The translations under genes and the position numbers were made by a program. A model generated the notes under the pieces. That model was not told the DNA's origin, made no database searches, and worked only from the letters and a program-made list of their open reading frames with translations. Shown piece by piece: positions 24,118 through 55,823 of a stretch of 55,823 bases of DNA (positions within the stretch are counted from its first letter, which is position 1; every line of letters begins with the position of its first letter). The DNA is from an uncultured Lachnospiraceae bacterium (lineage in GTDB: Bacteria > Bacillota > Clostridia > Lachnospirales > Lachnospiraceae), in NCBI GenBank assembly GCA_948470755.1, contig CAOKPU010000011.1:1-55823 (forward strand), read 5' to 3'.

Positions 24118-24252
24118 GTGTGAGAAGAACTTCTAAAGCGCAACGGCAGAGGTTGTTTCGCTAAGAAGCGCTTCACACAAGAGAATGCCTGAATTGCAGC
24201 ATTCTCTGCACGGATTTGAGATTTTGCAAAGCGGGATCATGGGAGTTGGCGT
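24118..24252 (+). repeat. Structured dispersed repeat, copy A
   Basis: About 135 bases filling the gap between the formyltransferase and deacetylase genes. Outer arms GTGTGA and TCACAC pair; inside are a stem AACGGC-AGAG-GTTGTT, a stem GAGAATGC...GCATTCTC, and a stem GATTTTGC-AAA-GCGGGATC. The same scaffold occurs at five other places in the window, always on the + strand. This copy has changed outer arms (T:A where others have C:G) and G-T wobble pairs. Its last bases run straight into the ATG at 24253 and provide GGGAG as a ribosome site. Confidence 0.8.
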
Positions 24253-25008
24253 ATGAAGATAGCGGTTCGGATGGATGATATTGCGCCGGGAATGGATTGG
24301 GTAAAATTTGGACGGTTTAAGGCGCTTTTGGATGAGTATAAAATAAAACCCTTAATTGGGGTAGTGCCGGACAATCAGGATGAGAATCTTAAACGGACGC
24401 ATGAGGGCGGGACATCCTGCGACAATCCTGTTCCTGAAGACTTTTGGGGATATATAAAAAAGCTGCAGGACGATGGATGGGTGATTGCCATGCATGGGTA
24501 CCAGCATGTATATACCCGGAAAAAAGGGGGCTTATTCCCGTTAAATCATTTTTCTGAATTTGCCGGGCTGGATTACGACAGGCAGTTTGACATGCTGGTA
24601 AGGGGAAGGGAGATTATGGAATCCCATGGGATCGGAACGGATATTTTTATGCCTCCCGCCCACTCTTATGACAAAAATACATTAAAGGCGCTGCGAAAGG
24701 CAGGATTTTGTAAGATAACGGACGGGTTTGGGAAAGAGCCTTATTTTTGGAATGAAATGTGCTTTTATCCGATTTCATTCCGTTTGGATAGCGATTTAAA
24801 GAAGAAAAAAGGGATGACCACCATGGTTGTCCATACCAATACGGTAAGCGGGAAGGATATGGAAAAATACCGCCGGATTTTTAAGGAAAACGACATAATG
24901 CCATATGGGGAATATCTGAAAATGAAAGCGGTGAAAAGAGGTCTTTGCGGACGTGGGGCAGAATATCTGTCAGCTTGTGTAAAACATCTGTTGGTAAAGC
25001 TTTTGTAA
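24253..25008 (+). CDS. Polysaccharide deacetylase-like protein (DUF2334 type)
   Basis: A 251-residue NodB-fold protein: RMDDIAPG (6-13) has the Asp-Asp pair that starts the metal site, MHGYQHVY (near 80) supplies the metal His residues, and PPAHSYD (about 134-140) the later motif. It lacks a signal peptide, so it appears cytoplasmic. Relatives remove N-acetyl groups from sugars, here possibly from a lipid-linked intermediate; the true substrate is unknown. The start is unusual: the ATG abuts repeat copy A, whose end provides the GGGAG ribosome site seven bases upstream. The next gene begins 14 bases after the stop. Confidence 0.72.
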   Translation: MKIAVRMDDIAPGMDWVKFGRFKALLDEYKIKPLIGVVPDNQDENLKRTHEGGTSCDNPVPEDFWGYIKKLQDDGWVIAMHGYQHVYTRKKGGLFPLNHFSEFAGLDYDRQFDMLVRGREIMESHGIGTDIFMPPAHSYDKNTLKALRKAGFCKITDGFGKEPYFWNEMCFYPISFRLDSDLKKKKGMTTMVVHTNTVSGKDMEKYRRIFKENDIMPYGEYLKMKAVKRGLCGRGAEYLSACVKHLLVKLL

Positions 25009-25022
25009 GGGGAGGGATTCCG

Positions 25023-26219
25023 ATGGAAAAACCAGTCCGTGTGTTGCATGTGCTTGGAGGCTTAAGCCTGGGCGGGGCGGAGAGCCGGATTATGGATTTA
25101 TACCGCTGCATGGACAGGAGTAAAGTACAGTTTGATTTCCTGGTGCATCAGGACGGGGCGGAACGCGTTCCTGAGTTTTATGATAAAGAGGTAGAGGGAC
25201 TGGGCGGGAATATTTACAGGCTGCCGAAGTTTAAAGTATATAATTATGCTGCATATAAAAAGGCAATAAGGTCTTTTTTCAGGGAGCATCATGATTTTGC
25301 CGTGGTTCAGGGCCATATGACGAGTACGGCTTCTATTTATCTGCCGGAAGCGGCGAAAGCGGGAGTGCCGGTAAGGGTTGCCCATGCCAGGAGCGCGGGG
25401 GTGGATCAGGGGCTAAAGGGGATCATGACAAAGATATTGAGGATCCCGTTGTTAAAATGCGCGGATTATTGCTTTGCCTGTTCCGGGGAAGCAGGGCGGT
25501 CCGTATTCGGAAAAAAATGGATCGATTCACCAAAAGCTTTTATTATTCCCAATGCGGTTGATGTGCGGAAATTTGTATACCAGGAATCGGTAAGGAAGCA
25601 GATAAGGGAAGAACTTGGGATTGCGGATGGATATGCTCTGGGGCATGTGGGAAGGTTCCATTATGCAAAAAATCATGAATTCCTGTTGGAAGTCTTTGCA
25701 GTTTTTCATGACAGGATGAAGGAGAAGGGGATACGGGCGGCGCTGCTTTTGCTTGGGGAAGGGCCCGGCATGGAGGCGGCAGTGCGGCAGGCCTCGGATC
25801 TTGGCGTCCGTCAGGATGTGTTTTTTATGGGGAATCAAAAAGAAGTATGGAAGTATTATCAGGCCATGGATTATTTTGTTTTTCCCTCCCGGTTTGAAGG
25901 GCTGCCGGGAACGGTCATAGAGGCGCAGGCAGCCGGGTTAAGGTGCATGGTGTCCGACCGGGTTACACGTGAGGCAGGAATCAGCCGGTTAGTGCATTAC
26001 GAAGACATCGGGATTCCGGCTAAGGATTGGGCGGGATATATTATGGACAATATGTCTTATCAAAGGGAAAATATGTGCCAGGTAATAGAGGACGCCGGTT
26101 TTGATGTGAGGGAACAGGCATACAGGATGGAAAGATTTTATTTGACAGGGGAAATGTCAAAAATGCGGAGTCTTCCTTCTTCGTCTGTGGCGCCGCATCA
26201 TGGCGGCGTGAGGGGATAA
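25023..26219 (+). CDS. Family-4 glycosyltransferase (EpsF-like)
   Basis: A 398-residue GT-B enzyme. LGGLSLGGAESRIMDL near the N-terminus is the GGAE acceptor-side motif of EpsF-like transferases; the C-terminal half has LGHVGRFHYAKNH and FPSRFEGLPGTVIEAQAAGL, the donor-binding E-x7-E motif. The ATG at 25023 follows GGGGAGGG and is preferred over an in-frame ATG at 24945, which would overlap the deacetylase gene. It adds one sugar to the growing lipid-linked chain on the inner face of the membrane; which sugar is not readable. The C-terminal tail past about residue 375 is low in structure and unlike the rest of the family. Confidence 0.85.
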   Translation: MEKPVRVLHVLGGLSLGGAESRIMDLYRCMDRSKVQFDFLVHQDGAERVPEFYDKEVEGLGGNIYRLPKFKVYNYAAYKKAIRSFFREHHDFAVVQGHMTSTASIYLPEAAKAGVPVRVAHARSAGVDQGLKGIMTKILRIPLLKCADYCFACSGEAGRSVFGKKWIDSPKAFIIPNAVDVRKFVYQESVRKQIREELGIADGYALGHVGRFHYAKNHEFLLEVFAVFHDRMKEKGIRAALLLLGEGPGMEAAVRQASDLGVRQDVFFMGNQKEVWKYYQAMDYFVFPSRFEGLPGTVIEAQAAGLRCMVSDRVTREAGISRLVHYEDIGIPAKDWAGYIMDNMSYQRENMCQVIEDAGFDVREQAYRMERFYLTGEMSKMRSLPSSSVAPHHGGVRG

Positions 26220-26231
26220 GCGGAGGTAGAC

Positions 26232-27350
26232 ATGAAAAAGAGGATTATGTTAATTGTTCCAATGCTTCATCAGGGAGGGTTTGAGCGTGTCTGTGTAACA
26301 ACGGCCAGGCTGCTGGAGCCTTATTTTGATATATATATTGTATTATTTGATTCCAAAGATATCGCATATGACATTAAGGGGCTGAATGTGGCGGATCTCC
26401 ATCTGGGAGTAAGGGAAGGGAAAATAGGAAAGGCCCTGAATGTAGTGAAAAGAAGCCTTGCGGTCAGGAAGCTGAAAAAAGAATGGGAAATTGACATTGC
26501 CTACAGCTTCGGCCCTTCCGCCAATATGGTGAATGTTTTCTCAAGATCGGACGAAGAAGTATGGACGGGTATACGCAGTTATATGGACATGGGGAATAAG
26601 CGGCTGATAAAGCTTTTCGCAAGAAAAGCGGACAAGGTACTGTGCTGTTCCAGGCGGATTGAAGAAGAGGTGGCCACAAAATACCATTGTAAGAAGGCGG
26701 TAACTTTGTATAATCCGCTGGATGTGAAAGAACTGCAGGAGAATGCGTTGGAGGAAGAAATCAGGCTGCCTTGGGAGGATCGGGAAAACATTATTGTTTC
26801 CATGGGGCGGGAAGATGACGTAAAAGGATTCTGGCATCTGATCAAGAGTTTTTCCCTTGTAAAGAAAGAGGTTCCGGACGGAAAACTAATGATCATAGGG
26901 GATGGGGAATTTGAGGAATATAGGACCTTAGCCAAGGAGCTTGGGGTTGGGGATGACGTATATTTCACAGGAGTAAAGAAAAACCCGTTCCCTTATTTAA
27001 AAGCAGCGAAAGTTTATGTGTTGACCTCCTATCATGAAGGGTTCCCTAATGCGCTGATTGAAGCGATGGCTTTGGGACTTCCGGTGATTGCAACGGATTG
27101 TCTGACAGGGCCTAGGGAGATATTGCGGAAGGAAAATCTGTCTTATGGGATATTGATCCCAAATATGAGCCCGGAAAAGGATCTGGACCCGCTCCGGATT
27201 AGCGGGGAGGAAAAAAACTTGGCGGTGGAAATCAGCAAAATGCTGACGGATCGGGATTACCGTAAAAAATATGAAAAAGCTTCCGCCATCAGGGTGAGGG
27301 ATTTTTCTAATGAATATTATGTGGAATGTCTGATGGGATGGATGGGGTGA
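26232..27350 (+). CDS. Family-4 glycosyltransferase (PglJ/PglH-like)
   Basis: A 372-residue GT-B transferase with MLHQGGFERV near the N-terminus, SMGREDDVKGFWHLI at the start of the donor half, and SYHEGFPNALIEAMALGLPVIATD as donor site. It has the same overall pattern as the GT4 enzymes at 32494 and 39329, which share the G-G-x-E-R-V start and the ATDC tail motif; the three are probably paralogues adding similar sugars. This is the last gene before a strong terminator, so it closes the operon that starts near 10.7 kb. Confidence 0.86.
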   Translation: MKKRIMLIVPMLHQGGFERVCVTTARLLEPYFDIYIVLFDSKDIAYDIKGLNVADLHLGVREGKIGKALNVVKRSLAVRKLKKEWEIDIAYSFGPSANMVNVFSRSDEEVWTGIRSYMDMGNKRLIKLFARKADKVLCCSRRIEEEVATKYHCKKAVTLYNPLDVKELQENALEEEIRLPWEDRENIIVSMGREDDVKGFWHLIKSFSLVKKEVPDGKLMIIGDGEFEEYRTLAKELGVGDDVYFTGVKKNPFPYLKAAKVYVLTSYHEGFPNALIEAMALGLPVIATDCLTGPREILRKENLSYGILIPNMSPEKDLDPLRISGEEKNLAVEISKMLTDRDYRKKYEKASAIRVRDFSNEYYVECLMGWMG

Positions 27351-27425
27351 GAGAAATGTATGTATTCAGGAAAAGTATGTTTGGATAAAAAATAGTATTG
27401 CAAATGTAAGATGCAGACAAAAAAT

Positions 27426-27487: not shown

Positions 27488-27581
27488 GTTGTTCTATGTG
27501 CTTCCTGAACCGGCTCTACTGGTATTTTTTTAATCAGTTATAATAATATGGAATCTAGTTGTTATAGCGAAAGGAGAGAAT

Positions 27582-28694
27582 ATGCCGAGAAGAGGAGAGA
27601 ATATCTACAAAAGAAAAGATGGAAGATGGGAAGGCCGGGTAAAAGGGCCGCAGGAATCATGTAATCGGGGAAAATATAAATCAGTGTACGGAAAAACTTA
27701 TAAGGAAGTAAAGAGCAAAATGGATGAATACAAAAAGGATATGTCTATACGTAAAAATTCACATATGTACATTGTGAAAGAAGCTGCCGGTATCTGGCTG
27801 GAAGAAGGGAAAAAAAACTGGAAGCCGACAACCTACCGGACATACTGCCAGATTACAGACAAATATATTATCCCCTTTCTTGGATGCATGGATATCACTG
27901 CGGTTGATGCAAAGACTCTGGATAAATTCCATTCGCAGTTGGCTTGTAAAAGCGATATCCCTCTTTCCAATAATTACTGTTTCTATATTTGCTCTCTTGT
28001 CCTTCGGATCTTACGCTATAGCAGAAAAAAATACGATATAACACTGCCGCTTCCGGAGCTGTCATTTTGCAAAAATAAGATGCAAAAAATTAATCCGCCC
28101 GGGGAACGTGTTTTAGCCACGCTGGAAAGGTATCTGGTGGAACATGCGGAGGATGAAACTTGTCTTGGTATCAGCATCGCCCTGTATACAGGCATCCGTA
28201 TAGGGGAATTATGTGCATTGACTTGGAAGGATGTTGATCTGGAAGATAAGATAATTTATATTCGCAGGAATGTGCAAAGGGCAAAGGAAGAGGAGCGTGG
28301 GACGGGTAGGACAAAAATTATCATCCAATCTCCCAAAACGCCGGATTCCGTGAGGTTTATTCCTATCCCGCCGGTTTTATGCAAGCTACTACAGGGGAAA
28401 GAAAAGGAAGGGTTTCTTATTTCCGGGGTGAAACATGACTGGGTGGATCCACGCACCTTACAGTACCGTTTTAGAAGAATATTGGATCAATGCGGGATTG
28501 AATATTTTAATTTCCATATGCTCCGTCATGTTTTCGCAACCAGATGTGTTGCCATGGGGTTTGATATCAAAAGCCTGAGTGAAATACTTGGCCATAGCAG
28601 TATCCAGACAACCATGTCTTTATATGTCCATCCAACGGTGCAACATAAAAGGCAGTTGATGGAGCGTTTCCTTTCTTACGCGGATCCGGCCTGA
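27582..28694 (+). CDS. Tyrosine recombinase / phage-type integrase
   Basis: A 370-residue site-specific recombinase. An N-terminal AP2-like arm-binding region (GENIYKRKDGRWEGR), a SAM-like core-binding domain (about 60-150) and the catalytic domain are all present. Catalytic residues are Arg206 (GIRIGEL), Lys252, His312 and Arg315 (HMLRH), His338 (LGHSS) and Tyr348 (SLYVHP), so it looks active. The ATG follows AAAGGAGAG. It stands alone: no excisionase, relaxase, phage or attachment-site pair is seen. It meets the next gene tail to tail, with a 19-base overlap. It may be a relic of an insertion or may switch a nearby DNA segment; both are inference. Confidence 0.9.
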   Translation: MPRRGENIYKRKDGRWEGRVKGPQESCNRGKYKSVYGKTYKEVKSKMDEYKKDMSIRKNSHMYIVKEAAGIWLEEGKKNWKPTTYRTYCQITDKYIIPFLGCMDITAVDAKTLDKFHSQLACKSDIPLSNNYCFYICSLVLRILRYSRKKYDITLPLPELSFCKNKMQKINPPGERVLATLERYLVEHAEDETCLGISIALYTGIRIGELCALTWKDVDLEDKIIYIRRNVQRAKEEERGTGRTKIIIQSPKTPDSVRFIPIPPVLCKLLQGKEKEGFLISGVKHDWVDPRTLQYRFRRILDQCGIEYFNFHMLRHVFATRCVAMGFDIKSLSEILGHSSIQTTMSLYVHPTVQHKRQLMERFLSYADPA

Positions 28695-30478
28695 CCGGTT
28701 TTTGGATGCCAAAGATACATAATGGAATATTCATCATTCACTTTGGGGAAAACGGTAATTTCCCCGCCTTCTAAACCGCAGCGGCTGATAACGGCGTCCA
28801 GGATTACTTCCTGCTGATAGGAAGAAGAAATACAAATCAATACGGAGCCGTATTTTCCGGAGGGCAGCGGGATGGGATCCAGGCTGTTTATTTGTTCAGG
28901 ATAAAGCAGTGCGGTTTTTTGGCATGTCCCCATAATATCCAGACAGGATTTGTACATCCAGCCGTTAGGTTCCGCAACATAAATACAGACGGCGTCCCCG
29001 GCCTCCTTCATAAAGGCGGCACGTTCTTTTTTCTCGGGATAAGTGTAATCTACCTTGACGTTCATAAGGCTGTATAATGTAATGGCGGCGCCCAGAATGC
29101 ATAGCAATACATAGCGGTGTACGGCAATGGTATGTATAGCATTGCCATATATGGCATTACAATGTGGCGCATTGTTATGTACGGGACAAGAGCGGGGGAT
29201 GAGGGAGGATAGTATGATGCGGAATAACCCATACATCCCTAAGAAGATGAATGGGAAAATACACATAACATAACGGTTGGCAAGAAAAGGAGTACTGATA
29301 GCCACTAAAAGGATATACCCGGCGGAAGGGATCAGGATCAGAAGGCCTTTCAGTATGGAGAGGGAGGAGGGCATGGGCTTTTTTCCTGTTTTTATGAGGT
29401 AAATAAGCCAAAGAATGCCGGCCGCGGACAACAACAGCAAAAGGGCAAGAAGCAGAGGCTGTTGCGCAAAAAGGCTGGTTGCAATGATTTTGAAATATGC
29501 GGCCAGCCGGTGTAAAATATGGCCCGATGATGCATTGGAAAAAGTGCCGGCTCCAAAACTGTCAAAGAATATATGTTTAATGGAAAATGGCCAGAGGATA
29601 ACGCTGAGGATGGCCGCCGTCAGCGAAGCGGAAAGGTATGGTATCGCTTTAGGGCGTGTTTCTTTCTTCCGGGACAGATAAAGCAAGATAGTCCCTACGA
29701 GGAAAAAGGCATAGATGACAAAGTAATATTGTGTATAAAACCCAAAAAAAGCACAGAAAATATAAGCAAGCCGGCTTCTCTTTGTAAATGTAAACCCGTT
29801 CTCGGCAACGCGGAGGTTAATGGCGAAAAAGGCCAGTACAAAAAAAGTATACATAGCATACATCCGTATGATCAGCAATGTGGAAATACCGCCGATGCTC
29901 ATAGCGTAGCATAAAGTAATGAGAAAAGCATATTTTGTACCGCCAAAATACTTGTCCGCAAGATAATAGAGCAAGGCGCATACAGGCAGCAAAAAAAGGA
30001 CATTAATGATAAGCCCGTACCATAAAGAGAATGTGTCCGGGAATAAGGAGCAGATAAAATGTAGTAAAAGATAGTAAAGGGGAGGGGCCGAATCATAGGA
30101 TATATTGTAAAAAACGGAAAGAAAATCAAACCGGTCCCCTTGTGTTGTCATAAGATATTGGCCAAAATAGCCGGCGTCATGCCAGAGGGAAGGATCGTCC
30201 TTCTGTTTTTCAGATGCTTTGAAATCCTTGTAAATGCGGGAATTTTCCTTTCCGTTTTTCAGGATATCGTTGATATCCTCCATAATGGAAGAAAGGGAAG
30301 AAGAGCCTAAATAGGAACGGATGTATTCTACCCTTGATGATTGGCGGTTTGACAGATCGTAACTTAATAATTCATCAACAAATGTCCCTTCTTTGCGGGA
30401 ACACCAGAAAAGCATAAAAAAAACTGTAATAGCCATACAGATAAAAAAGGAGATGTATTTTTGATGTACGTTTTTCAT
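28676..30478 (-). CDS. GT-C / GT39-like membrane glycosyltransferase
   Basis: The only minus-strand gene. About 600 residues with ten or more membrane helices. The first outside loop has TFVDELLSYD, with the acidic residues expected of the active site, and SYDSAPPLYYLLLHF matches the PPLYY motif of ArnT/PMT-like enzymes. It would move a sugar from a polyprenyl-phosphate carrier outside the cell. The start is read at 30478; an in-frame ATG 20 codons upstream (30538) has no ribosome site. A loop between helices near residue 430-450 contains a palindromic insert. Its stop lies inside the end of the recombinase gene, so both may have arrived together. Confidence 0.75.
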   Translation of the reverse strand: MKNVHQKYISFFICMAITVFFMLFWCSRKEGTFVDELLSYDLSNRQSSRVEYIRSYLGSSSLSSIMEDINDILKNGKENSRIYKDFKASEKQKDDPSLWHDAGYFGQYLMTTQGDRFDFLSVFYNISYDSAPPLYYLLLHFICSLFPDTFSLWYGLIINVLFLLPVCALLYYLADKYFGGTKYAFLITLCYAMSIGGISTLLIIRMYAMYTFFVLAFFAINLRVAENGFTFTKRSRLAYIFCAFFGFYTQYYFVIYAFFLVGTILLYLSRKKETRPKAIPYLSASLTAAILSVILWPFSIKHIFFDSFGAGTFSNASSGHILHRLAAYFKIIATSLFAQQPLLLALLLLLSAAGILWLIYLIKTGKKPMPSSLSILKGLLILIPSAGYILLVAISTPFLANRYVMCIFPFIFLGMYGLFRIILSSLIPRSCPVHNNAPHCNAIYGNAIHTIAVHRYVLLCILGAAITLYSLMNVKVDYTYPEKKERAAFMKEAGDAVCIYVAEPNGWMYKSCLDIMGTCQKTALLYPEQINSLDPIPLPSGKYGSVLICISSSYQQEVILDAVISRCGLEGGEITVFPKVNDEYSIMYLWHPKTGQAGSA

Positions 30479-30618
30479 GAGCCTAAAAACCCCTATTTTA
30501 TAGCAATAAGATAAATTACAAAATAAATTATAATACATTTTTTGCGAATGAAAATACTTTTAATAAATTATTAATCTTTATCTTTTTGCCGGAATATCTG
30601 ATTAAGAAATCTACTGCC

Positions 30619-37114: not shown

Positions 37115-39001
37115 ATGTGCGGGATATGTGGTTTTGTATCCAGGAGGGATATCAGCCTGACGCAGTTAAAAGATATGAATGATACGATGTACCATAGGGG
37201 GCCGGATGATGGCGGGGAAGAAATCTATGAGATGCCCGGCGGGTATAAAGCCGGGTTTGCCCAAAGAAGGCTGGCGATCATGGACTTATCGGCTTTGGGA
37301 CATCAGCCCATGCATTCGGCCAATGGGAGGGTCAGCGTTGTTTTTAATGGGGAAATTTATAATTTCCAGGATATCCGCAAGGAACTTTCCGGCTATACGT
37401 TCCGTTCTAACTGCGATACGGAGGTAATCATTGCGGCATATTTAAAATGGGGGATTGGCTGTGTGGAACGTTTTGTGGGGATGTATGCCATTGCCCTGCT
37501 GGACCGGGAATGCGGAAAAGTCTACTTGGCACGGGATTGTATCGGAAAGAAACCGCTGTATTACTGGCTGGATGGTGAGAACCTTGTATTTGCTTCGGAA
37601 TTAAAACCAATCATGTCCTGTCCGGGTTTTCAGAAGGAAATCAGAAAAGATGTGCTGTCCCGTTATCTTTATCAACAGTACATTAACGCGCCGGAAACGA
37701 TATTTGAAAATGTATATAAACTGGAGCCGGGTTCTGTCCTTGTTTTTTCGGGCGGACGGGTAAAAACCCGGAAATATTGGGAAATAAAGGAAGTGTATCA
37801 CAGGCAGATAAAAAATCCGGTGCAGGATTATTCTCAGGCTAAGTCGGAACTAAAGGGACTGCTGAAAAAAGCGACGGCATACCGGATGATTTCCGACGTG
37901 CCGTTAGGCGCGTTCTTAAGCGGAGGATATGATTCTTCGCTTATTACGGCGATAGCGCAGGAGCATTCCAAAGAACCGGTTAAGACGTTTTCCATCGGTT
38001 TTCAGGAAGAAAAATATAACGAAGCGAAGTATGCGAAGCAGGTGGCAGATTATTTGGGGACTGACCATACGGAGCTGTATATCAATGAAAAGCAGATGTT
38101 TGATCTGGTGGATAGTATTCCGCAGTATTATGACGAACCGTTTGCGGACAGCTCCCAGATACCGTCCATGCTGGTATCTGCCTTGGCCAGGGAAAAAGTA
38201 ACGGTAGCGCTTTCCGGGGACGGCGGGGATGAATTCTACTGCGGTTATAATATTTATGAGAATGTGGCGCAGGCCCAGATACTGGACATTCCCGGCGGGC
38301 TGGTTCATGGCGTCTGTCATCTGCCGCTTGTAAGGAATACCGGGATCGGGGAAAAGCTGCCTTTCCGGGTAAAGGTGATCGCTCAAAACCGCAACAAAGA
38401 GACGAAGACCCAGTTCGGGGCAGGGAACTATATTGTCAGGGCCAGGAAAATGGTAAGGAATGACGGGAATGAGCTTCCTTGTCATTATGAGATAGAAAGC
38501 AGCTACGGGGAAGGAAGGTGGCAGGCGCGCCGGATGCTGTTGGATATGGATACGTATCTGCCGGGAGATATTCTTTGCAAAGTAGACAGGGCGTCTATGA
38601 AATATTCTTTGGAGGCGCGCTGTCCGATCCTGGATAAAAAGGTAATGGAATATTCTTTCCGTATCCCTCATAATTTCAAATTCCATAAGGGGGATAAAAA
38701 GCATATTTTAAAAGATATCGCTTATGATTATATTCCTAAGGAACTGCTGGACAGGCCCAAGGTAGGCTTTGGAGTGCCGCTGGATCAGTGGCTGCGCGGC
38801 CCGTTAAAGGAGCAGCTCCTAGATTATAGCGAAAAGGATTATCTGGAAAAACAAGGTATTTTTGATGCGGGATATGTATCAGGGATGATAAGGGATTATA
38901 TCAGGACGGGGGATGGCGGGCCGGCTACAGGGGCGAATTATTCCAAGCTGTCATGGTCGTTCTTTATCTTTGAACAGTGGTATCGGAAGTACTTAGCGTG
39001 A
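37115..39001 (+). CDS. asnB: Asparagine synthase (glutamine-hydrolysing) family amidotransferase, first copy
   Basis: A 628-residue AsnB-type protein. Cys2 of MCGICGF is the glutaminase nucleophile; HRGPDDGG is the usual glutamine-domain motif; the synthase domain has the PP-loop SGGYDSS and the ALSGDGGDE block. In glycan loci such enzymes (WbpS-like) often turn a uronic acid carboxylate into an amide, and UDP-GalNAcA made here is a plausible target. That is inference: true asparagine synthesis is the alternative. The last codons are TTA GCG TGA, which are also the first nine bases of repeat copy B, so the protein's end Leu-Ala is set by the repeat. The next asnB copy is at 41582. Confidence 0.9.
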   Translation: MCGICGFVSRRDISLTQLKDMNDTMYHRGPDDGGEEIYEMPGGYKAGFAQRRLAIMDLSALGHQPMHSANGRVSVVFNGEIYNFQDIRKELSGYTFRSNCDTEVIIAAYLKWGIGCVERFVGMYAIALLDRECGKVYLARDCIGKKPLYYWLDGENLVFASELKPIMSCPGFQKEIRKDVLSRYLYQQYINAPETIFENVYKLEPGSVLVFSGGRVKTRKYWEIKEVYHRQIKNPVQDYSQAKSELKGLLKKATAYRMISDVPLGAFLSGGYDSSLITAIAQEHSKEPVKTFSIGFQEEKYNEAKYAKQVADYLGTDHTELYINEKQMFDLVDSIPQYYDEPFADSSQIPSMLVSALAREKVTVALSGDGGDEFYCGYNIYENVAQAQILDIPGGLVHGVCHLPLVRNTGIGEKLPFRVKVIAQNRNKETKTQFGAGNYIVRARKMVRNDGNELPCHYEIESSYGEGRWQARRMLLDMDTYLPGDILCKVDRASMKYSLEARCPILDKKVMEYSFRIPHNFKFHKGDKKHILKDIAYDYIPKELLDRPKVGFGVPLDQWLRGPLKEQLLDYSEKDYLEKQGIFDAGYVSGMIRDYIRTGDGGPATGANYSKLSWSFFIFEQWYRKYLA

Positions 39002-39128
39002 GAAGAACTTCTAAAGCTCAACAGCAGTGGCTGTTTCGCTAAGAAGTTCTAAGTCTCACGCAGGAGAATGCCTGAAATGCGGCATTATCCGCACGGATTT
39101 GAGATTCCGCGAAGCGGAATCATGGGGG
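38993..39128 (+). repeat. Structured dispersed repeat, copy B
   Basis: 136 bases. Outer arms GCGTGAGA (38996-39003) and TCTCACGC (39054-39061) pair perfectly; a second stem AGAACTTCT (39004-39012) with AGAAGTTCT (39042-39050) extends it, capped by AACAGC-AGTG-GCTGTT. Then come GGAGAATGCC...GGCATTATCC and GATTCCGC-GAA-GCGGAATC. The first nine bases supply the stop codon of asnB. It is followed head to tail by copy C. Confidence 0.85.
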
Positions 39129-39305
39129 TTAGCGTGAAGAGAAGTTCTAAGGCTCAACAGCAGTGGCTGTTTCGCCAAGAACATCTAGGGTTCGCGCAGC
39201 GAACCGCCCTTCACGCAGGAGAATGCCCAAAATGCGGCATTCTCCCGGATAAGCGGGCTTATCCTGGGATTTGAGGTTCCGCGAAGCGGGATCATGGAAG
39301 TTTTA
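39129..39305 (+). repeat. Structured dispersed repeat, copy C
   Basis: 177 bases, in tandem with copy B. Outer arms GCGTGAAG (39132-39139) and CTTCACGC (39209-39216). Two extra hairpins are inserted relative to copy B: GGTTCGC-GCA-GCGAACC (39189-39205) and GGATAAG-CGGG-CTTATCC (39247-39264). Stem GGAGAATGCC/GGCATTCTCC (39218-39245) is perfect. Its first 90 bases are identical to copy D, 15.26 kb downstream. Copies B and C together fill the 39002-39328 gap; no gene is seen there. Confidence 0.85.
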
Positions 39306-48203: not shown

Positions 48204-50587
48204 ACATTATGGTGAAAGTATCCATATGCATCCCGGCATTCAATAACGTCCAATCGGTGAGAAGGCTCCTTGCATCGGTGGAAGAGCAGGACTTTACGGA
48301 TTATGAAGTGGTAATCACGGATGATTCCGACGGGGATGGGATAAAACGGCTGGCGGAAGAAAAAGAGTATGTGAAATATTATAAAAATGACAAACCTCTC
48401 GGAGCGGCGGCAAACTGGAATGCGGCGATTGCAAAGGGAAACGGCGAATATGTGAAGATTATGCACCACGACGACTGGTTTACGCAAAAGGACGGCTTAA
48501 GGGGATTTGTGGATATGCTGGATCAGTGCCCGGAAGCGGATTTTGCCTTTTCAGGGAGCCGGCAGACGGAAGAGGGAAGAAGTTATGACCGGTGCATTGC
48601 GGATGAGGACGCGGCTCTTATCTCATCGGATTACCGCAATCTTTTTCTTGGAAATACCGTTGGGGCGCCCAGCGCGGTAATCGTAAGGCGCGCTGCGCTG
48701 GGCCTGGATGGAAAAGGGGATGAGATAAGAGACGCCGTTGTTTATGATGAAAAGCTGAAATGGCTGGTAGATATGGAATACTATATGAATCTGTTAAAGC
48801 ATAACCCCCGGTTTGTTTTTACAAAAAAGCCGCTGGTATCCATCGGGATTGGCGGTGGGCAACTGACGGAGGGCTGTCGTGACGATAAGGGGTTAAATGC
48901 TTTTGAATACGGATATATTTATGAAAAATACCAGCTTGGTTCGATGCAGGAATGCCGCAGGAAGCTGACCCATATATTGGCGGAGGCCGGAAAAAGCGCA
49001 GGGGAGGCGTCGGCTTTCGGGATTGGGGGAAGGGAATATGGGATGGAGATGGGGAAAAAGCTGCTTAGCAAGATCCAATGGAAGCTCACTCATTGGGTGG
49101 ATGCAAAAAAGATCTTTATAGCATTGCTTTTGTTATTCGCATTAAGTCTGATCCCGGTGTTGGCGCTTTCCGGTATCAATCATGCTACCGGGGATGATCT
49201 GGGATACGGCAGGCTGACCAGGGAGGCATGGGTGGCGTCCCATTCCTTTTGGGAAGTTTTAAAAGCGGCGGGGAAGACTGTGGAAGTTTATTATTACGGC
49301 TGGCAGGGGACATGGCTGACGATTTTTCTTTTTACGCTGCAGCCGGAGGTCTTTGCGCCGTGGGCTTATGTGATCGTTCCATTTTTAATGCTTGCCGTAT
49401 GGCTGGGGTCTACGTGGATTCTCCTGCATTACCTGCTCGTTAAGAAGGCAGGGGTTTCCAAGGTATATTTTGGGATGATATATCTGTTGTTTTCCATAGC
49501 CGCTATCCAATATGTACCCAGTACCAAATCGGCAATTTTCTGGTACAACGGAACGGTTCATTACGTGATACCATATGCCGTTGCCTTGCTGGGGATTTAT
49601 TTTTATCTGCGGGTGGTGGATGACGGACAAAAAGGGAGGGCGGGGAGTTATATAGGACTGACGTTATGCATGGCTATGCTGGGGGGAGTGAATTATCAGG
49701 CGGCCCTCCTTACCCCGATGGTTATGGCGCTTTTGGCTCTTTGCTTATGGAAATATAAAAAAGTAAGAAAAAGGGCGGCGGCGTGTTTATTGCCCCTGTT
49801 TCTGGAACTGGCGGGGTTGTTTGTCAGTATAAAAGCGCCGGGCAATAAAGTAAGGGGAGGGGAAGCCTTTGGGTTCAGTATCCCGGCTGCCGTAAGCACG
49901 ATCATATCCTGCTTTGTCCGGGGAGCGGTAAAAGCATGGCAATATGTCGAGGGGCATCCTTTGTTGATCCTTATCTTTGCGGCGGCGGCTTATGTATTTT
50001 GGCAGGCGCTAAAAAGGGATGGGGTGAAAAAGAGATATCCTTACCCGGTCATATTTGTCCTTTTCTCTTATTGCGTATATTGCGCGATGTTTGCGCCGGA
50101 GATTTACGCCGGCGTGGAAGTTTCCGGCGGCGTACACAATATGAATTATTATATGTTCCTATTTATGGTATTCGGTGATATGATGTATGTGGAAGGGGCT
50201 TTGGCAGGAAGGCGGGAAAAAGAAGGGGAAAAGAAGAAAAGCGCGGTTTATCTGCCCGTGGCGGTTGTATTGGCGTCGGGGTTCCTTCTGGCCTTCCGGG
50301 GGGATCTTAAACAGACGACCTCATTTTTGTGCATAGATTATATCAGCAGCGGGCAGGCGGCTGATTTTAAGGAGCAGATGGAATTCCAGTTATCCGTGCT
50401 GTTGGATGATGCGGTGAAGGACGTGGCGCTCCCGGCGGTCAATGACAGGCAGGGGCCTCTGATGCATATGCCGCTGACGGAGGATCCGGAGGCATGGACG
50501 AATAGTGTTACAAAGATGTTTTATGGGAAAAACAGTGTAGTTGCGGTTCCGCGCGAAGTGTGGAATGAGATGCAGGGAATAGAATGA
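48200..50587 (+). CDS. Fusion: family-2 glycosyltransferase + DUF6056-like GT-C membrane domain
   Basis: A 795-residue chain. Residues 1 to about 260 are a GT2 domain (ICIPAFNNVQSVRRLL, ITDDSDGDG, MHHDDWFT as metal site). From about 305 a membrane domain with ten or more helices follows, whose first outside loop has NHATGDDLGYG and YYYGWQGTW, like DUF6056/GT-C proteins with their acidic pair. It thus links an inside transferase to an apparent outside transferase. The ATG at 48200 has AAAGGAG upstream and overlaps the previous stop (ATGA). The last bases overlap the polymerase gene. One possibility is that the GT2 part charges a carrier lipid for the GT-C part. Confidence 0.82.
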   Translation: MNIMVKVSICIPAFNNVQSVRRLLASVEEQDFTDYEVVITDDSDGDGIKRLAEEKEYVKYYKNDKPLGAAANWNAAIAKGNGEYVKIMHHDDWFTQKDGLRGFVDMLDQCPEADFAFSGSRQTEEGRSYDRCIADEDAALISSDYRNLFLGNTVGAPSAVIVRRAALGLDGKGDEIRDAVVYDEKLKWLVDMEYYMNLLKHNPRFVFTKKPLVSIGIGGGQLTEGCRDDKGLNAFEYGYIYEKYQLGSMQECRRKLTHILAEAGKSAGEASAFGIGGREYGMEMGKKLLSKIQWKLTHWVDAKKIFIALLLLFALSLIPVLALSGINHATGDDLGYGRLTREAWVASHSFWEVLKAAGKTVEVYYYGWQGTWLTIFLFTLQPEVFAPWAYVIVPFLMLAVWLGSTWILLHYLLVKKAGVSKVYFGMIYLLFSIAAIQYVPSTKSAIFWYNGTVHYVIPYAVALLGIYFYLRVVDDGQKGRAGSYIGLTLCMAMLGGVNYQAALLTPMVMALLALCLWKYKKVRKRAAACLLPLFLELAGLFVSIKAPGNKVRGGEAFGFSIPAAVSTIISCFVRGAVKAWQYVEGHPLLILIFAAAAYVFWQALKRDGVKKRYPYPVIFVLFSYCVYCAMFAPEIYAGVEVSGGVHNMNYYMFLFMVFGDMMYVEGALAGRREKEGEKKKSAVYLPVAVVLASGFLLAFRGDLKQTTSFLCIDYISSGQAADFKEQMEFQLSVLLDDAVKDVALPAVNDRQGPLMHMPLTEDPEAWTNSVTKMFYGKNSVVAVPREVWNEMQGIE

Positions 50588-51819
50588 GCATGGATGGACG
50601 GATCTGGAAAGAAAAGGCGAAGATAGATAAAATAGGGATAATCCTGCTGTATTTGTATGTGACGTTGGAGGTTGTGATCGTTATTATTGATAAGAGCAAC
50701 TATACCAATCCATTGGAAGGGCAGCTTTTCCGGATTACTTTTTTGCTTGCGTCCGGCAAGGTGTTTTTTACCCGATATTCCGTAAAAGAGTGGGCTGCCT
50801 TGCTTTTATCGGGCATTCTGGGATTTGTGTCCTATAAACTGACGGGGAGGAATGAAATCCTGAGGATTGTTGTGTTTATTGGGGCATGTAAAAATGTGGA
50901 TATGGGCAAAGTATTAAAGTATGTGTTTTATACTTCGGCAGCGGGCTGCCTGCTGCTGGCGGCATTATCATTGACAGGGATTTACGGAGGCCTGGCGATG
51001 GAAGCGGATTTTGGAAGGGGCTATACGCAGATCAGATATTGTCTGGGCCTGGGGCATCCAAATTCTCTCCATTGCATGTTCATGATGCTGCTTCTTTTGG
51101 GTTTGTATCTGTACAATGAGCGGATGAAATGGTATGGTTATCTTATACTGTGCGCCCTGAATTATGGGCTGTTCGTCCTCACGGACTCCAATACAGGGAC
51201 GCTTATAAGCTTTTGCGGGATTTTTGGGGCGGCGGTCATACGCTATTGGAAGGGGCTAAAAGAAAAAAAATGGGCCTATATAGCAGGGACGTCGGTATTT
51301 TTATTTTGCGTGGTTTGTTCAGTGCTGGCGGCGGACAGCAGATTTGCCAAGCCAAAAGATTACTGGTTCCAGAATCCGCTGGTCGGCAAGGTGGAATCCC
51401 GTCTCAACGGACGGATTATGGATTTGTATTATGGTTCCGTAAACAGTGAAGGGACGACGGCAACCTGGTCGCTGTTTTCGCGCCCGGAGAACGATTATTA
51501 TTTCGATATGGGGTTTGTACGGTTGTTTTACTGGTATGGGATCATTCCTGGCGGGATTTATGTTTTGTTAAACGTGGCGCTTATATGGCAGTTTTATAAA
51601 AAGAAAGACGGCATGGGGCTTGTGATGATGACGGCATTGTCGGTTTATACGGTAGTGGAAGCGCACCTTGTCTCTGTGTATATTGGAAGGAATTATCTGT
51701 TATTTTTGATGGGAATGTATGGCAGCGGTATATTGGGATCGGATTCCGGTAAGGAAGAGTATCTATGGACGGCATACCGCCTGCTTGGAAAACGGAGCGG
51801 CTATGAAGCAGAAAAATAA
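50584..51819 (+). CDS. O-antigen/polysaccharide polymerase (Wzy-like)
   Basis: A 411-residue membrane protein with about ten helices. LGLGHPNSLHCMFMM and LTDSNTGTLIS in the middle and RLNGRIMDLYYGS in the long outside loop are the blocks I associate with Wzy-type polymerases of clostridial loci. It would polymerise lipid-linked repeat units outside the membrane. It is distinct from the ligase-like protein at 10834. It overlaps the preceding fusion gene by 4 bases and the following phosphoglycosyl transferase gene by 17 bases. Confidence 0.8.
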   Translation: MSMDGRIWKEKAKIDKIGIILLYLYVTLEVVIVIIDKSNYTNPLEGQLFRITFLLASGKVFFTRYSVKEWAALLLSGILGFVSYKLTGRNEILRIVVFIGACKNVDMGKVLKYVFYTSAAGCLLLAALSLTGIYGGLAMEADFGRGYTQIRYCLGLGHPNSLHCMFMMLLLLGLYLYNERMKWYGYLILCALNYGLFVLTDSNTGTLISFCGIFGAAVIRYWKGLKEKKWAYIAGTSVFLFCVVCSVLAADSRFAKPKDYWFQNPLVGKVESRLNGRIMDLYYGSVNSEGTTATWSLFSRPENDYYFDMGFVRLFYWYGIIPGGIYVLLNVALIWQFYKKKDGMGLVMMTALSVYTVVEAHLVSVYIGRNYLLFLMGMYGSGILGSDSGKEEYLWTAYRLLGKRSGYEAEK

Positions 51820-53215
51820 GATTATCGAAGTATATGGTTTATGGTTTGCGGATTTAGTAAGCCTTCTGGCGGCATTTATTGCCGCTACTTATATCCGGTT
51901 TGGGAATTTCAGGGATATGGGGGACAGGAATATCCATTTTCTTGTATGCTTATGCCTGATGCTTTTTTGTACGGTTTACAGTTTCTTCTTTGACTGGAAC
52001 AGGAACTTCTTAAGAAGGGGCATCCGGAAAGAAGTGATGGCTGTCATCCAATACAATGTTATTATGCTGCTGGTGGTAAATCTGATGATGACAATGATGA
52101 AATGGGCGGATGCATTTTCACGGCTGGTGTTGGCTTATTTTTTTATTCTGAATGTGTGTTTGTCGCTGCTCATTCACTTGATGATAAAAAAGGCAATGCG
52201 TACGTATTATTCATCAGGCCAGAATGCCGTAAAAGTGTTGGTTGTCACGCAAAGCAACCTGATCGACGAGACGTTGGACAGGCTGGAAAGGGATCTGGAT
52301 ATTTATTATCAGATTGTGGCCCTTGCCTGCGTTGATTATAATATGGAGGGAAAAGCCGTCAGGAATATCCCGGTGGTGGCCGGGAAAGAAGATGTTATCG
52401 AAGTGGCGACCCAGATGGCTTTGGATGAGGTATTTTTAAATCTTCCGGGCATATCCCAAAGCAATATGGAAGGTATGATCCATGGATTCGAGGATATGGG
52501 GGTGGATTGCCATTACAGCTTAGAGCTGCCCGGAGGGGACGCCAACCGCAGCAAGGTGGAGAGTTTTGGTAATTATACCGTGATCACATATACCAGGTTT
52601 CAAAGCAGCTATAAACGGATGATGATTAAGCGGGTGATGGATATTCTGGGGGGATTGGCGGGCATGCTGATTACTTTGTTTTTCCTGCCTTTTGTAGCGG
52701 CAGCCATTAAGCTGGATTCCAAGGGGCCGGTATTTTTTTCCCAGGTCAGGATTGGGAGAAATGGGAGACGGTTTAAAATCTATAAATTCCGTTCCATGTA
52801 TATAGATGCGGAAGAACGGAAAAAGGAACTGGAAGCCGAAAATGAGATGCAGGGCCTGATGTTTAAGATGGAAAACGACCCCAGGATCACCAAGGTGGGG
52901 GCATTTTTAAGGAAGACGAGCATTGACGAGCTGCCTCAGTTCTATAATGTGTTCAAAGGGGATATGAGCCTTGTGGGGACCAGGCCTCCTACGGCGGATG
53001 AATTTGAGAAATATAATCAGTATTACCGCAGAAGGATCAGTATGACTCCGGGCCTGACCGGTATGTGGCAGGTGAGCGGGAGAAGTGATATTGATAATTT
53101 CGATGATGTAGTGAAGTATGACTTGATGTATATAGATAACTGGTCTTTGCGCCTGGATATCAGGATATTGTTCCAGACGGTGGGAGTTGTATTATTCGGA
53201 AAGGGAGCAAAATAA
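51803..53215 (+). CDS. Polyprenyl glycosylphosphotransferase (WcaJ/WbaP/EpsE-type), second initiating enzyme
   Basis: A 470-residue protein with about four N-terminal helices, a central CoA-binding-like domain, and a C-terminal phosphoglycosyl transferase domain (from about 275): GPVFFSQVRIGRNGRRFKIYKFRSM, SIDELPQFYNVFKGDMSLVGTRPP with the Asp-Glu dyad, and MTPGLTGMWQVSGRS. It moves a phospho-hexose from UDP-sugar to undecaprenyl phosphate and so starts an exopolysaccharide. The ATG at 51803, five bases after GGAG, is preferred over an in-frame start at 51719. It is separate in type from the PglC-like enzyme at 16607. Confidence 0.92.
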   Translation: MKQKNKIIEVYGLWFADLVSLLAAFIAATYIRFGNFRDMGDRNIHFLVCLCLMLFCTVYSFFFDWNRNFLRRGIRKEVMAVIQYNVIMLLVVNLMMTMMKWADAFSRLVLAYFFILNVCLSLLIHLMIKKAMRTYYSSGQNAVKVLVVTQSNLIDETLDRLERDLDIYYQIVALACVDYNMEGKAVRNIPVVAGKEDVIEVATQMALDEVFLNLPGISQSNMEGMIHGFEDMGVDCHYSLELPGGDANRSKVESFGNYTVITYTRFQSSYKRMMIKRVMDILGGLAGMLITLFFLPFVAAAIKLDSKGPVFFSQVRIGRNGRRFKIYKFRSMYIDAEERKKELEAENEMQGLMFKMENDPRITKVGAFLRKTSIDELPQFYNVFKGDMSLVGTRPPTADEFEKYNQYYRRRISMTPGLTGMWQVSGRSDIDNFDDVVKYDLMYIDNWSLRLDIRILFQTVGVVLFGKGAK

Positions 53216-54396
53216 TGAATTTGGTGATTGACTGTTTTAAGCAGGTCAAAGGGGCGGGAAAAAGTATAGGTATTTATAACCTGGCTAAAAGCATTGTCGT
53301 GCATTTAGGGCAGCGGGCGTTAAAAAAGGCGGAAGAAAATGCGGACAGGGGCGGAAATAAGGCCGTCGATACGATTATTGTGCTGGGGAATGTTTATAAC
53401 AGGGAAGAGTTTGATGTACCTGGAGTGGTTTTTGTAGAAGTAAAAGGAAATCCGCTGAATAAATTATACTGTATTTTGTGGGAATTGATATTCGTAATAA
53501 AATATGCAAGAAAATATCAGGCGGACCGCATTCTTTTTCCACGCGGATACCGTCCTATAGGAAGAAAGGGATGGATCGGAAGGTGCAGAGGGGGAAGAAA
53601 GATAAGGGATACGATCCTGATTCATGACCTGATCCCATTTTATTACGATAAATATTATCCGGGGGTGTTCAACCGGCTGGAGAACGCCTATATCATGTAT
53701 CGGTTAAAAGTATCGATGAAAAAGGCAGACCGGATCATCACCATTTCGGAATATTCCAGAGAAGACATATTGGATAAGGTTCCCGGATGCGGCGGGAAGA
53801 TCAGGGTGATTTACAATGGGATGAACCCCGTTCCGCAGGAGCGGCAAAACAGCAATGCCGGGGCGGGCTGCGAAAAAGAGGGGTATATCGTGGCTATGAC
53901 TTCGATGCTTCCCCATAAGAACGCCAGGGGCGTGCTGCGGGCTTATGAAGCGTATTATAAAAAGGCGGATGAGCCTTTGCGCCTTTCCGTCATTGGGATA
54001 GGAGATACGTCGTGTTATAAGGAAATGGAAAAAGAAGCGGCGGCGCATGTGACATGTTATAAATTTATTAAGGATTTCGATGAGATGTGCCGGATTGCGG
54101 CAGGAGCGAGGGCCTATTTGTTTCTCTCTTATGTGGAAGGGTTTGGATTCCCTCCCTTAGAGGCTATGCAGATGGGGGTTCCGGTTGTTTGTTCCGATAG
54201 GAGTTCGCTGCCTGAAGTGGTAGGGGATGCCGGGATCCTGGTGGATCCGGATGATATGGGACAGATCGTACGCGCGTTGATCAAAGTGACGGAGGATGAA
54301 GCCGTCAGGGAAGGATTGATTCAAAAGGGATATGAGAATATCCGGCGCTTTTCCTGGGAAAGCAGGACGGATTTATATTGGGATGCATTAGCGTGA
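53215..54396 (+). CDS. Family-4 glycosyltransferase (mannosyltransferase-like)
   Basis: A 393-residue GT-B enzyme: HDLIPFYYDKYYPG, ADRIITISEYSREDIL, MTSMLPHKNARGVLRAY, and LSYVEGFGFPPLEAMQMGVPVVCSD. The HDLIP and EGFGFPPLEAM blocks are typical of mannosyl- and rhamnosyl-type GT4 enzymes. Its ATG shares a base with the stop of the phosphoglycosyl transferase gene (TAATG), so it may add the second sugar to that enzyme's product. The last codons, TTA GCG TGA, are also the start of repeat copy D, so the stop codon belongs to the repeat, as with asnB at 39001. Confidence 0.87.
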   Translation: MNLVIDCFKQVKGAGKSIGIYNLAKSIVVHLGQRALKKAEENADRGGNKAVDTIIVLGNVYNREEFDVPGVVFVEVKGNPLNKLYCILWELIFVIKYARKYQADRILFPRGYRPIGRKGWIGRCRGGRKIRDTILIHDLIPFYYDKYYPGVFNRLENAYIMYRLKVSMKKADRIITISEYSREDILDKVPGCGGKIRVIYNGMNPVPQERQNSNAGAGCEKEGYIVAMTSMLPHKNARGVLRAYEAYYKKADEPLRLSVIGIGDTSCYKEMEKEAAAHVTCYKFIKDFDEMCRIAAGARAYLFLSYVEGFGFPPLEAMQMGVPVVCSDRSSLPEVVGDAGILVDPDDMGQIVRALIKVTEDEAVREGLIQKGYENIRRFSWESRTDLYWDALA

Positions 54397-54543
54397 AGAG
54401 AAGTTCTAAGGCTCAACAGCAGTGGCTGTTTCGCCAAGAACATCTAGGGTTCGCGCAGCGAACCGCCCTTCACGCAGAAGAATGCCCAAAATACAGGCAT
54501 TCTTCATCAGGATTTGAGATTCCGCGAAGCGGAATCATGGCGG
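54388..54543 (+). repeat. Structured dispersed repeat, copy D
   Basis: 156 bases. The first 90 bases match copy C exactly, including the inserted GGTTCGC-GCA-GCGAACC hairpin. The next stem is GAAGAATGCC/GGCATTCTTC where copy C has GGAGAATGCC/GGCATTCTCC: a paired change. The last stem is GATTCCGC-GAA-GCGGAATC. The repeat supplies the stop of the GT4 gene before it. Confidence 0.85.
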
Positions 54544-54609
54544 TTAGCGTGAAGAGAAGTTCGGATTGCCTTTGGCAATTTTAGCTCAACGGCAGTGGCT
54601 GTTGGGGAA
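54544..54609 (+). repeat. Structured dispersed repeat, copy E (partial)
   Basis: A shortened copy in tandem with D: it has TTAGCGTGAAGAGAAGTTC, then an inserted hairpin ATTGCC-TTT-GGCAAT, then AGCTC and the AACGGC-AGTG-GCTGTT stem, and ends there. The 3' half of the unit is missing. The next gene's ribosome site GGAGG follows a few bases later. Confidence 0.75.
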
Positions 54610-54624
54610 GAATGGAGGATAATC

Positions 54625-55773
54625 ATGGGTAGGCTGCTGATATATGATAACTCTAATTTCATTGATTTCCCCATTGGGGGCCAGGTGACTAGCATCGGCA
54701 ACTTTCTCCGGTTTGTCTGCGAGGCATATCCGGAGCGTACGAAGGATATTGTATTGGCGGGAGTAACCATAGACCCGGAAGAGGTAGGAAAAATAAAAAA
54801 GGTCGAGCTTTATGGCAGGAAGATTGATTTTCTGCCCGTCGCGGCAGCGGAGAGGGATTTGGGGAATGTTTCCAAATCCCTCCGGCTGATGTACGCCAAA
54901 GGGCTTTTGAAGTATGGGAGGCAGTTAAAGATTACCAGGCACGATTGCAATTATGTCCATGCGCCGGAAGCTTATGGCATAATCAAATTCTTTCAAAGGC
55001 AGTCAAAATGCGTGATTTTTTCCCATGGCAGTTATTTTAATATGGAACGGGGGTTCCGCTTTTTCCAGAAGAATATCCTGGTAAAAAAGGGGTTTGTGGT
55101 TTATCTGAAATGGATTCTTAGAAATGCAGATCTTATTTTATTGCTGGATAAGGACAGCCTTAGGGATTATAAGCCTTATAATTCCAATCTGTTCCAGGTG
55201 GGCAATTCCATTGTCTGCCCGGAGATCCCGGAGGAGAGGCATATCTTAAAGGAGGGGAAAGTAAAGGAAATCCTTTTTGTAGGACGCCTATCCAAAGACA
55301 AACGGGTAGAGCCGGTGATTCAGGCAGTATTGGAGTCAAAACCTTATTTTGACGGATTGAACCTCACCGTGGTGGGGGATGGGGAAGAATACCATAACCT
55401 GATAAAATACGAAGGGGAAAATGTACGCTTTACGGGGGCTGTGACGCCAAAAGAAGTGAAAGGATATATGCAAAAAGCGGATATCCTGGTGATGAATTCG
55501 GTATTTGAGGGGATTCCCATGACGATTTTAGAAGCCATCAGCTATGCCCTTCCGGTGGTAAGTACGAATGTGGGCGGGATTGGCGGCGTGCTTCAGTTCG
55601 GCCAGGATTCGGAGGAAACGGACGGGACGGCTGAGAGCATTTTGGAGGCTATAAAACGGATCGACAGATATTATGATATATACTCAAAAAATGCATATTG
55701 GAATTCCAAGGCTTATGATTACCGCTGTATCAACCAGAAAGTGTATGATTTGCTTTGCGGTTATTGGAAGTAG
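54625..55773 (+). CDS. Family-4 glycosyltransferase
   Basis: A 382-residue GT-B enzyme. FSHGSYFNMERGF in the N-terminal half, FVGRLSKDKRVEPVIQAVLE, VVGDGEEYHNLI, and NSVFEGIPMTILEAISYALPVVSTNVGG at the donor site. It does not resemble the TDCPCGG group at 32494 and 39329. The ATG at 54625 follows GGAGG; an in-frame GTG at 54595 lies within repeat copy E and is rejected. The stop TAG at 55771-55773 coincides with the first bases of repeat copy F, so the gene is a single-gene cassette bounded by repeats on both sides. Confidence 0.85.
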   Translation: MGRLLIYDNSNFIDFPIGGQVTSIGNFLRFVCEAYPERTKDIVLAGVTIDPEEVGKIKKVELYGRKIDFLPVAAAERDLGNVSKSLRLMYAKGLLKYGRQLKITRHDCNYVHAPEAYGIIKFFQRQSKCVIFSHGSYFNMERGFRFFQKNILVKKGFVVYLKWILRNADLILLLDKDSLRDYKPYNSNLFQVGNSIVCPEIPEERHILKEGKVKEILFVGRLSKDKRVEPVIQAVLESKPYFDGLNLTVVGDGEEYHNLIKYEGENVRFTGAVTPKEVKGYMQKADILVMNSVFEGIPMTILEAISYALPVVSTNVGGIGGVLQFGQDSEETDGTAESILEAIKRIDRYYDIYSKNAYWNSKAYDYRCINQKVYDLLCGYWK

Positions 55774-55823
55774 CGTGAGAAGAACTTCTAATCACTCGCA
55801 GCAGAGGCTGCTTCGCGAAGAAG
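55771..55823 (+). repeat. Structured dispersed repeat, copy F (cut by window end)
   Basis: TAGCGTGAGAAGAACTTCTAA followed by a stem GCAGC-AGAG-GCTGC and TTCGCGAAGAAG; the rest lies outside the window. It belongs to the copy A/B subtype. Its TAG is the stop of the preceding GT4 gene. Confidence 0.75.

Follow-up and report, generated by a model that had tools for sequence, protein, structure and literature searches.

What are the folded repeats that punctuate the genes of contig CAOKPU010000011.1 of an uncultured Lachnospiraceae bacterium, and how did they come to lie there? The window, by which we mean the whole stretch of 55,823 nucleotides (nt), is one entire contig (C11) of a draft genome of 3,013,109 bases in 114 contigs, hereafter the source genome. 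A sequence-only reading of this DNA had noted a structured unit at six places and had wavered between a mobile palindromic repeat and an RNA element that processes or tunes a long message. Bacteria commonly carry small structured repeats, and for many of them we know of no mover and no insertion rule. The unit described here probably represents a family of small mobile repeats that are non-autonomous. The sequence itself reveals its insertion rule (NTAG before the point of insertion and NRTGA after it), its sense bias and the fact that two hairpin families have the same ends. The hunt for an enzyme and the effects of folded inserts in ribosomal-protein and gyrase gene junctions are thereby made concrete.

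Dispersed copies, empty sites and insertion target

Three to six hairpins in a row make up the unit, which is 131-189 nt long, begins with YGTGA and ends with GGNGGTTAG. A covariance model of it (R1; expectation value E up to 0.001, partial units included) gave at least 109 matches in the source genome. This is a lower bound because 150 of 1115 first-look candidates were scored. The matches group into 88 clusters, 17 of which have a contig end within 60 bases, and the repeats thus coincide with assembly breaks. Matches to R1 are present in 13 of the 16 genomes of the genus, the source genome included. The congeners carry 102 (G014), 43 (G003), 42 (G010), 34 (G004), 23 (G006), 10 (G005), 9 (G013), 7 (G001), 6 (G009), 2 (G012) and 1 (G002) matches, G015 has 1 weak match, and the same search found none in G007, G008 and G011. 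The searches of the family and the order used stricter filters, with 20 candidates scored per genome. They gave matches in 11 of 150 Lachnospiraceae genomes (11 different genera) and in 5 of 146 genomes of the order (all of one family), the source genome being counted in both. Public genomes yielded at least 103 stretches that fit a degenerate pattern, and among the 80 matches listed the hosts were Lachnospiraceae, Roseburia, Blautia, Acetatifactor, Parablautia, Lachnoclostridium or unclassified bacteria. The repeat is therefore not restricted to this assembly, a point on which the sequence-only reading had made its proposal depend. The phage and plasmid sequences searched held no match to the unit. 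A viral contig of 10.5 kb (L297) has two tandem units near its end (9436-9745), possibly in the host flank of a prophage.

Near-identical copies occupy unlinked sites. Two identical pairs were found among the 37 full units extracted, and among the 136-nt units 36 of 120 pairs are at most three bases apart. Three genomes (L045, L048 and L312) have different versions of the unit at what appears to be the same gene end, that of a protein ending in YAFDVRA; one version is little more than the P4 hairpin, and the place may be a repeatedly used insertion site.

Five unit-bearing junctions of the source genome (recF, tsaD, C3, C10 and malG) were sought in the 15 congeners. The unit was detected with cmsearch (E up to 0.01) in all five loci of the source genome and in none of 47 loci of relatives, of which two overlap and some are readable on one side only, the tsaD locus of G001 (L066) being left out. 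Among the relatives' loci examined, both flanks were readable in 37 and a single flank in nine. With dispersed copies and empty orthologous sites, the unit fits the description of a mobile interspersed repeat. The earlier suggestion of a mobile palindromic repeat thus draws support from 109 matches here vs 0-102 in the 15 congeners, from the empty sites and from the near-identical unlinked copies.

The junctions of the source genome read GGAATAG-unit-CTTGATG (recF), GATTAG-unit-TGGGAAAAGG (tsaD), GGGTTAG-units-TGTGAAAGG (C10), GGGTTAG-unit-AGAGAAAG (malG) and TGGTAG-unit (C3). A TAG stop codon stands at the aligned place in at least one relative for each of them (G001 and G002 for recF, G004 and G006 for tsaD, G013 for C3, G014 for C10, G006 for malG). 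When 19 left flanks resembling another right end are set aside, TAG with purines before it is present in 34 of 37, and the base preceding the TAG position is T in 22, G in 10, A in 4 and C in 1. On the right, with 17 flanks that are another unit or the second hairpin family (family 2, below) set aside, T occupies position +3 in 12 of 13 and G occupies +4 in 13 of 13. Insertion is thus shown to lie usually 3' of NTAG, which is often the upstream stop codon, and to have NRTGA after it. This target looks like the right end of the unit followed by its left end. The ends of the unit reproduce the target, so that a new unit can insert directly after an older one, which gives rise to head-to-tail arrays.

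Pairing, sense bias and shared ends

The structure was examined in an alignment of 32 copies of the source genome (A1) with six helices. P1 (GYGTGAG/CTCACRC) runs on into P2 (nine pairs) and encloses an inner hairpin of AACAGC/GCTGTT or GCAGC/GCTGC. P3 is GGAGAATGCC/GGCATTCTCC, and P4, either GATTCCGC/GCGGAATC or GCCGCTGC/GCAGCGGC, is followed by ATGGNGGTTAG; hairpins P1b and P3b are optional. Standard pairs fill 98.2% of the cells of A1 vs a mean of 89.5% after shuffling and 37-47% for slid partners, and 18 of 47 pairs have changed on both sides. An unguided RNAalifold prediction recovered the same helices apart from P1b, with 40 pairs. In a second alignment of 32 matches from relatives (A2), paired cells amount to 97.0% and double changes between species occur at 42 of 47 pairs, figures that are biased towards the structure because this alignment was fitted to the model. 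The pairing of the unit is shown to be maintained by compensatory changes. Pairs other than Watson-Crick favour the + strand (18 GU vs 11 AC cells in A1; 28 vs 12 in A2), and the distinct column states, which are not independent, number 33 GU-type vs 18 AC-type (one-sided p 0.024). The second copy in the window folds strongly both as RNA (z -6.9) and as DNA (z -8.9), so that RNA and single-stranded DNA are indistinguishable.

The unit has a strong orientation relative to genes. With open reading frames (ORFs) called mechanically and neighbours of at least 150 codons counted within 400 bases, it runs in the direction of 54 of 60 upstream genes (p about 1e-10) and 52 of 59 downstream genes (p about 1e-9). 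Where both neighbours are known, 28 of 37 units are co-directional with both. Stop codons were counted for 39 co-directional genes upstream of a unit, each at least 100 codons long, whose ends fall within the first 60 bases of the unit or less than 50 bases away from it; the junction TAG is the stop codon in 13 and the next TGA in 5. In other genomes, units occupy the S5-L30 gap in one locus (L307), the S8-L6 gap in two others (L308 and L054) and the space between an IscS-like protein and NifU in a fourth (L305), L30 and IscS being recognised by eye only. In the source genome, a unit lies between RecF and GyrB. Ribosomal-protein operons contain units in three different genomes (L307, L308 and L054). 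The data support the view that the folded sense strand matters and that the insertion site copies the junction of the unit itself.

A second hairpin family lies beside and between units. It has the form TAG-NTTGAAAAATCAGC...ATGGNGGNTAG, and its hairpins differ from those of the unit and its termini are the same. Shared termini with different hairpins suggest that the termini rather than the interior are recognised. Family 2 was seen in two subtypes in L015, L023, L029, L030, L105, L139 and other loci, some copies look like chimaeras of both families, and no copy was matched in the window.

Mechanism, candidate enzymes and other explanations

How might such a repeat move? A trans-acting enzyme would recognise the folded single strand of the unit and join it to sites that resemble the junction of the unit's own two ends. 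Gene junctions, with their stop codon, purine-rich stretch and start codon, would be expected to offer such sites on the sense strand, and the sense bias may thus reflect junction-like sites on that strand together with selection against disruption. A stop codon can be provided by the left end of the unit, and purine-rich, sometimes Shine-Dalgarno-like sequence by its right end. As the unit ends supply these, insertion inside an operon may be nearly silent, which would be the reason that units survive there. A more specific proposal can be framed as a tentative possibility. It would make the unit part of a class of mobile elements without protein, in which an undescribed enzyme inserts a folded single strand of RNA or DNA at mimics of the junction of the element. 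The sites would be the stop/start junctions of operons, the elements would spread in essential operons while replacing the stop codon and the ribosome-binding region that they interrupt, and the machinery would serve at least two hairpin families unrelated to each other.

Several points weigh against a mobile repeat with a clean insertion rule. No mobilising enzyme was found among the five families searched (Y1, Y2, IS110, reverse transcriptase and TnpB). In 2573 stop-to-stop ORF segments from the flanks, no mobile gene recurs by eye among the 25 clusters listed, which resemble ABC transporters, permeases and housekeeping genes. With exact end patterns required at both ends, no unit longer than 276 nt was detected. 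Opposite-running neighbours make up 6 of 60 upstream and 7 of 59 downstream genes. G001 (L066) carries diverged tandem units of its own near the tsaD junction, following TAAG about 20 bases beyond its stop codon. The stop codons at the tested junctions are mostly TAA or TGA in relatives and the downstream sequence has diverged, so the pre-insertion site of the source genome is a reconstruction. At one site in G014, between homologues of window ORFs 50584-51819 and 51719-53215, two units have taken the place of about 75 nt that are present in the window, among them the end of the upstream gene, and the window has no unit there; not every insertion was therefore clean. Of 21 cases, 4 have a start codon no more than four bases from the right end, and among 63 right-end matches in loci of the source genome, 17 have a pyrimidine as the middle base of GGNGG. 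On these two counts a general Shine-Dalgarno role was rejected.

That an enzyme is missing from the draft says little, since assembly often loses multicopy genes. PF01797 (Y1_Tnp), IS110, RVT_1 and PF07282 (TnpB) gave no match in the source draft and are present in 13, 14, 10 and 9 of the 16 genus genomes, respectively. The linked transposase that the sequence-only reading had proposed to look for was found in none of the loci examined, and the unit may still descend from an unrecognised insertion sequence (IS).

The alternatives each account for part of these data. A host-serving RNA element, folded between cistrons to direct RNase cleavage or to protect the upstream message and so tune operon expression, would fit the sense bias, the covariation of the stems, the wobble pairs that are commoner on the + strand (33 GU-type vs 18 AC-type states) and the position in operon gaps without a terminator tail. 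We hold it unlikely, as matches range from 0 to 109 per genome across the genus and orthologous sites are empty, a patchiness that disfavours a conserved host function, and the flanking genes are varied. Repetitive extragenic palindromes (REPs) or IS200-type elements, that is, TAG-tagged palindromes moved single-stranded by a Y1 transposase (a REP-associated tyrosine transposase, RAYT, or TnpA), would explain the [N]TAG tag beside a hairpin and the supply of TAG stop codons, both of which are described for GTAG REPs in PMC3733652, and Y1_Tnp is widespread in the genus (13 of 16 genomes). Four IS200-like Y1 loci also carry a sequence like the unit's right end: CATGGAGGTTTTTAT in L076, L083 and L088, and CATGGAGGTTTTATT in L078, two mismatches away and on the strand opposite the transposase gene, a near-match that is probably due to chance. 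PF01797 has no match in the source genome, the 16 Y1 ORFs inspected are IS200-type by length and layout (read by eye, with no RAYT-specific model), and a model scan of 20 Y1 loci of relatives gave one clear unit, about 1 kb from the gene (L081), and one 18-nt match (E 0.043, L085). The units, at 131-189 nt, multi-hairpin and head to tail, are not inverted dimers of 20-40 nt. This origin appears distinctly unlikely; besides the differences in size and layout from a GTAG REP, no Y1 gene flanked by the unit was found in the source genome or the 20 relatives' loci scanned.

Least probable would be a remnant of some other known mobile element, namely a DDE-type miniature inverted-repeat transposable element (MITE), an IS91-like Y2 element, IS110 or a group II intron. 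Y2_Tnp is the sole family of the five tested with matches in the source genome, and it also occurs in G003, G006, G010 and G011, so that it is present in four of the six genomes of the genus with the most units. G014 (102 matches) and G004 (34) are rich in units without a Y2 match, and G011 has Y2 without units. The Y2 genes of the source genome are IS91-like and look decayed (L326, at the end of C16, and L327, in C33). Of the Y2 elements in G003, G006, G010, G011 and the source genome, the end comparison covers that of G003, whose three copies have AATT-type boundaries unlike the ends of the unit; 13 Y2 loci gave no model match. On both grounds, with ends compared for the G003 element, an IS91/Y2 derivative is disfavoured. 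Six IS110 loci yielded just scattered one-mismatch matches to the end motif, and these negatives on shared ends are bounded by an end comparison that leaves TnpB and most IS110 and Y2 loci outside. Some copies of the unit start with GTGTG, as group II introns do; RVT_1 has no match in the source draft and Rfam none in the window, domain V not being tested separately. By inspection, the left terminus YGTGA and the right terminus GGNGGTTAG do not form inverted repeats. A DDE-type MITE was rejected for want of terminal inverted repeats, a duplication of 3-4 nt (NTAG) being indistinguishable from a copied end. An intrinsic terminator was rejected as well, since no terminator-like site (GC hairpin, then T run) overlaps units between 36500 and 55823, the range of the scan, which leaves the first copy outside it. 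A family of small mobile repeats remains the reading that we prefer.

Copies in the window and comparison with known repeats

The repeat was recovered at all six places noted before, every time on the + strand, and the four copies with a z score fold beyond chance (Table 1).

Table 1. Copies of the hairpin repeat in the window and the parts of copy 2 (MFE, minimum free energy).
Feature	Position	Strand	Evidence
Copy 1, diverged full unit, 131 nt, last stem degraded	24117..24247	+	cmsearch 106.7 bits, E 2.2e-32; fold z -3.0
Copy 2, full unit, 136 nt	38995..39130	+	model 150.6 bits; MFE structure, z -6.9
Copy 2, P1/P2 hairpin	38996-39061	+	MFE structure
Copy 2, P3 hairpin	39063-39090	+	MFE structure
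Copy 2, P4 hairpin	39103-39121	+	MFE structure
Copy 2, right end ATGGGGGTT(AG)	39122-39130	+	MFE structure
Copy 3, full unit, 172 nt, extra hairpins P1b (GGTTCGC/GCGAACC) and P3b	39131..39302	+	153.1 bits; z -5.8
Copy 4, full unit, 156 nt	54390..54545	+	165.6 bits; z -6.7
Copy 5, truncated: 5' third and ATTGCCTTTGGCAAT mini-hairpin	54546..54613	+	sequence; outside covariance-model match list
Copy 6, first 52 nt, ends at contig end	55772..55823	+	sequence, direct repeat family D2; outside covariance-model match list

Copies 2 and 3 form a head-to-tail tandem, and tandem units in the window meet at TTAG. The outer arms GCGTGA/TCACGC described by the sequence-only reading hold for copies 2-4; copy 1, with its diverged last stem, has GTGTGA/TCACAC. 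Its statement that copies lie exactly between genes has to be amended for copies 2, 4 and 6, where the junction or first bases hold the upstream stop codon. Copy 2 includes the TGA (38999-39001) of ORF 37115-39001, copy 4 includes the TGA at 54394-54396, and at copy 6, of which just the first module is visible, the junction TAG (55771-55773) ends the upstream ORF at 55773. Copy 5 meets the next gene near 54613, with GGAGG at 54614-54618 and a likely ATG start codon at 54625. No tRNA gene is present in the window. Rfam gave 0 matches there at gathering score and, in three loci searched at E up to 5, four matches (E 1.9-4.9) that all fall under gathering scores. Within these searches, the unit thus matches no named RNA family.

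Among the other genes of the window, ORFs 37115-39001 and 41582-43501 encode paralogues that are both asparagine-synthase-like (Pfam Asn_synthase plus GATase) and that sit among glycosyltransferases and a bacterial sugar transferase in a polysaccharide-type cluster. A 620-codon ORF on the minus strand (28676-30538), within a gene run that is mainly on the + strand, matches no Pfam family (E up to 1e-5).

The open-access literature searched yielded no description of this repeat, nor of what appears to be its combination of a self-similar site, sense bias, a multi-hairpin body and shared ends. Individual traits recur in known repeats. The bcr1 repeat of the Bacillus cereus group is structured, about 150 nt long and endowed with mobile-element traits in a Firmicute. 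The unit resembles it in length, structure, mobile-element traits and Firmicute host; by description, hosts and ends differ. Di Nocera et al. (2013; PMC3733652) name bcr1 as a MITE. The GTAG-tagged REPs that are the subject of that paper are described there as palindromes in many copies, mostly intergenic, that often supply a TAG stop codon, and they are hypothesised to be miniature transposons. The unit is like them in its TAG tag, its many and mostly intergenic copies and its supply of TAG stop codons. GTAG REPs are single palindromes of 20-40 nt with a GTAG tag, often in inverted dimers, and the unit does not fit this: it measures 131-189 nt, contains several hairpins, forms head-to-tail arrays, has TAG at both ends with mostly T before it, and is strongly sense-biased, and no RAYT was found.

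The BOX repeats of Streptococcus pneumoniae are modular, structured, interspersed and partly transcribed, and in one genome they give the upstream stop codon in 36 of 58 overlapping coding sequences, according to PMC3049150. The unit is likewise modular, structured and interspersed and encodes upstream stop codons. Since both REP and BOX elements do so in these accounts (PMC3733652; PMC3049150), the supply of stop codons by a repeat is not new. By description, the unit departs from BOX in that no boxA-boxB-boxC layout was recognised in it and the host of BOX is a streptococcus, and a TTAG/NRTGA site is reported for the unit here.

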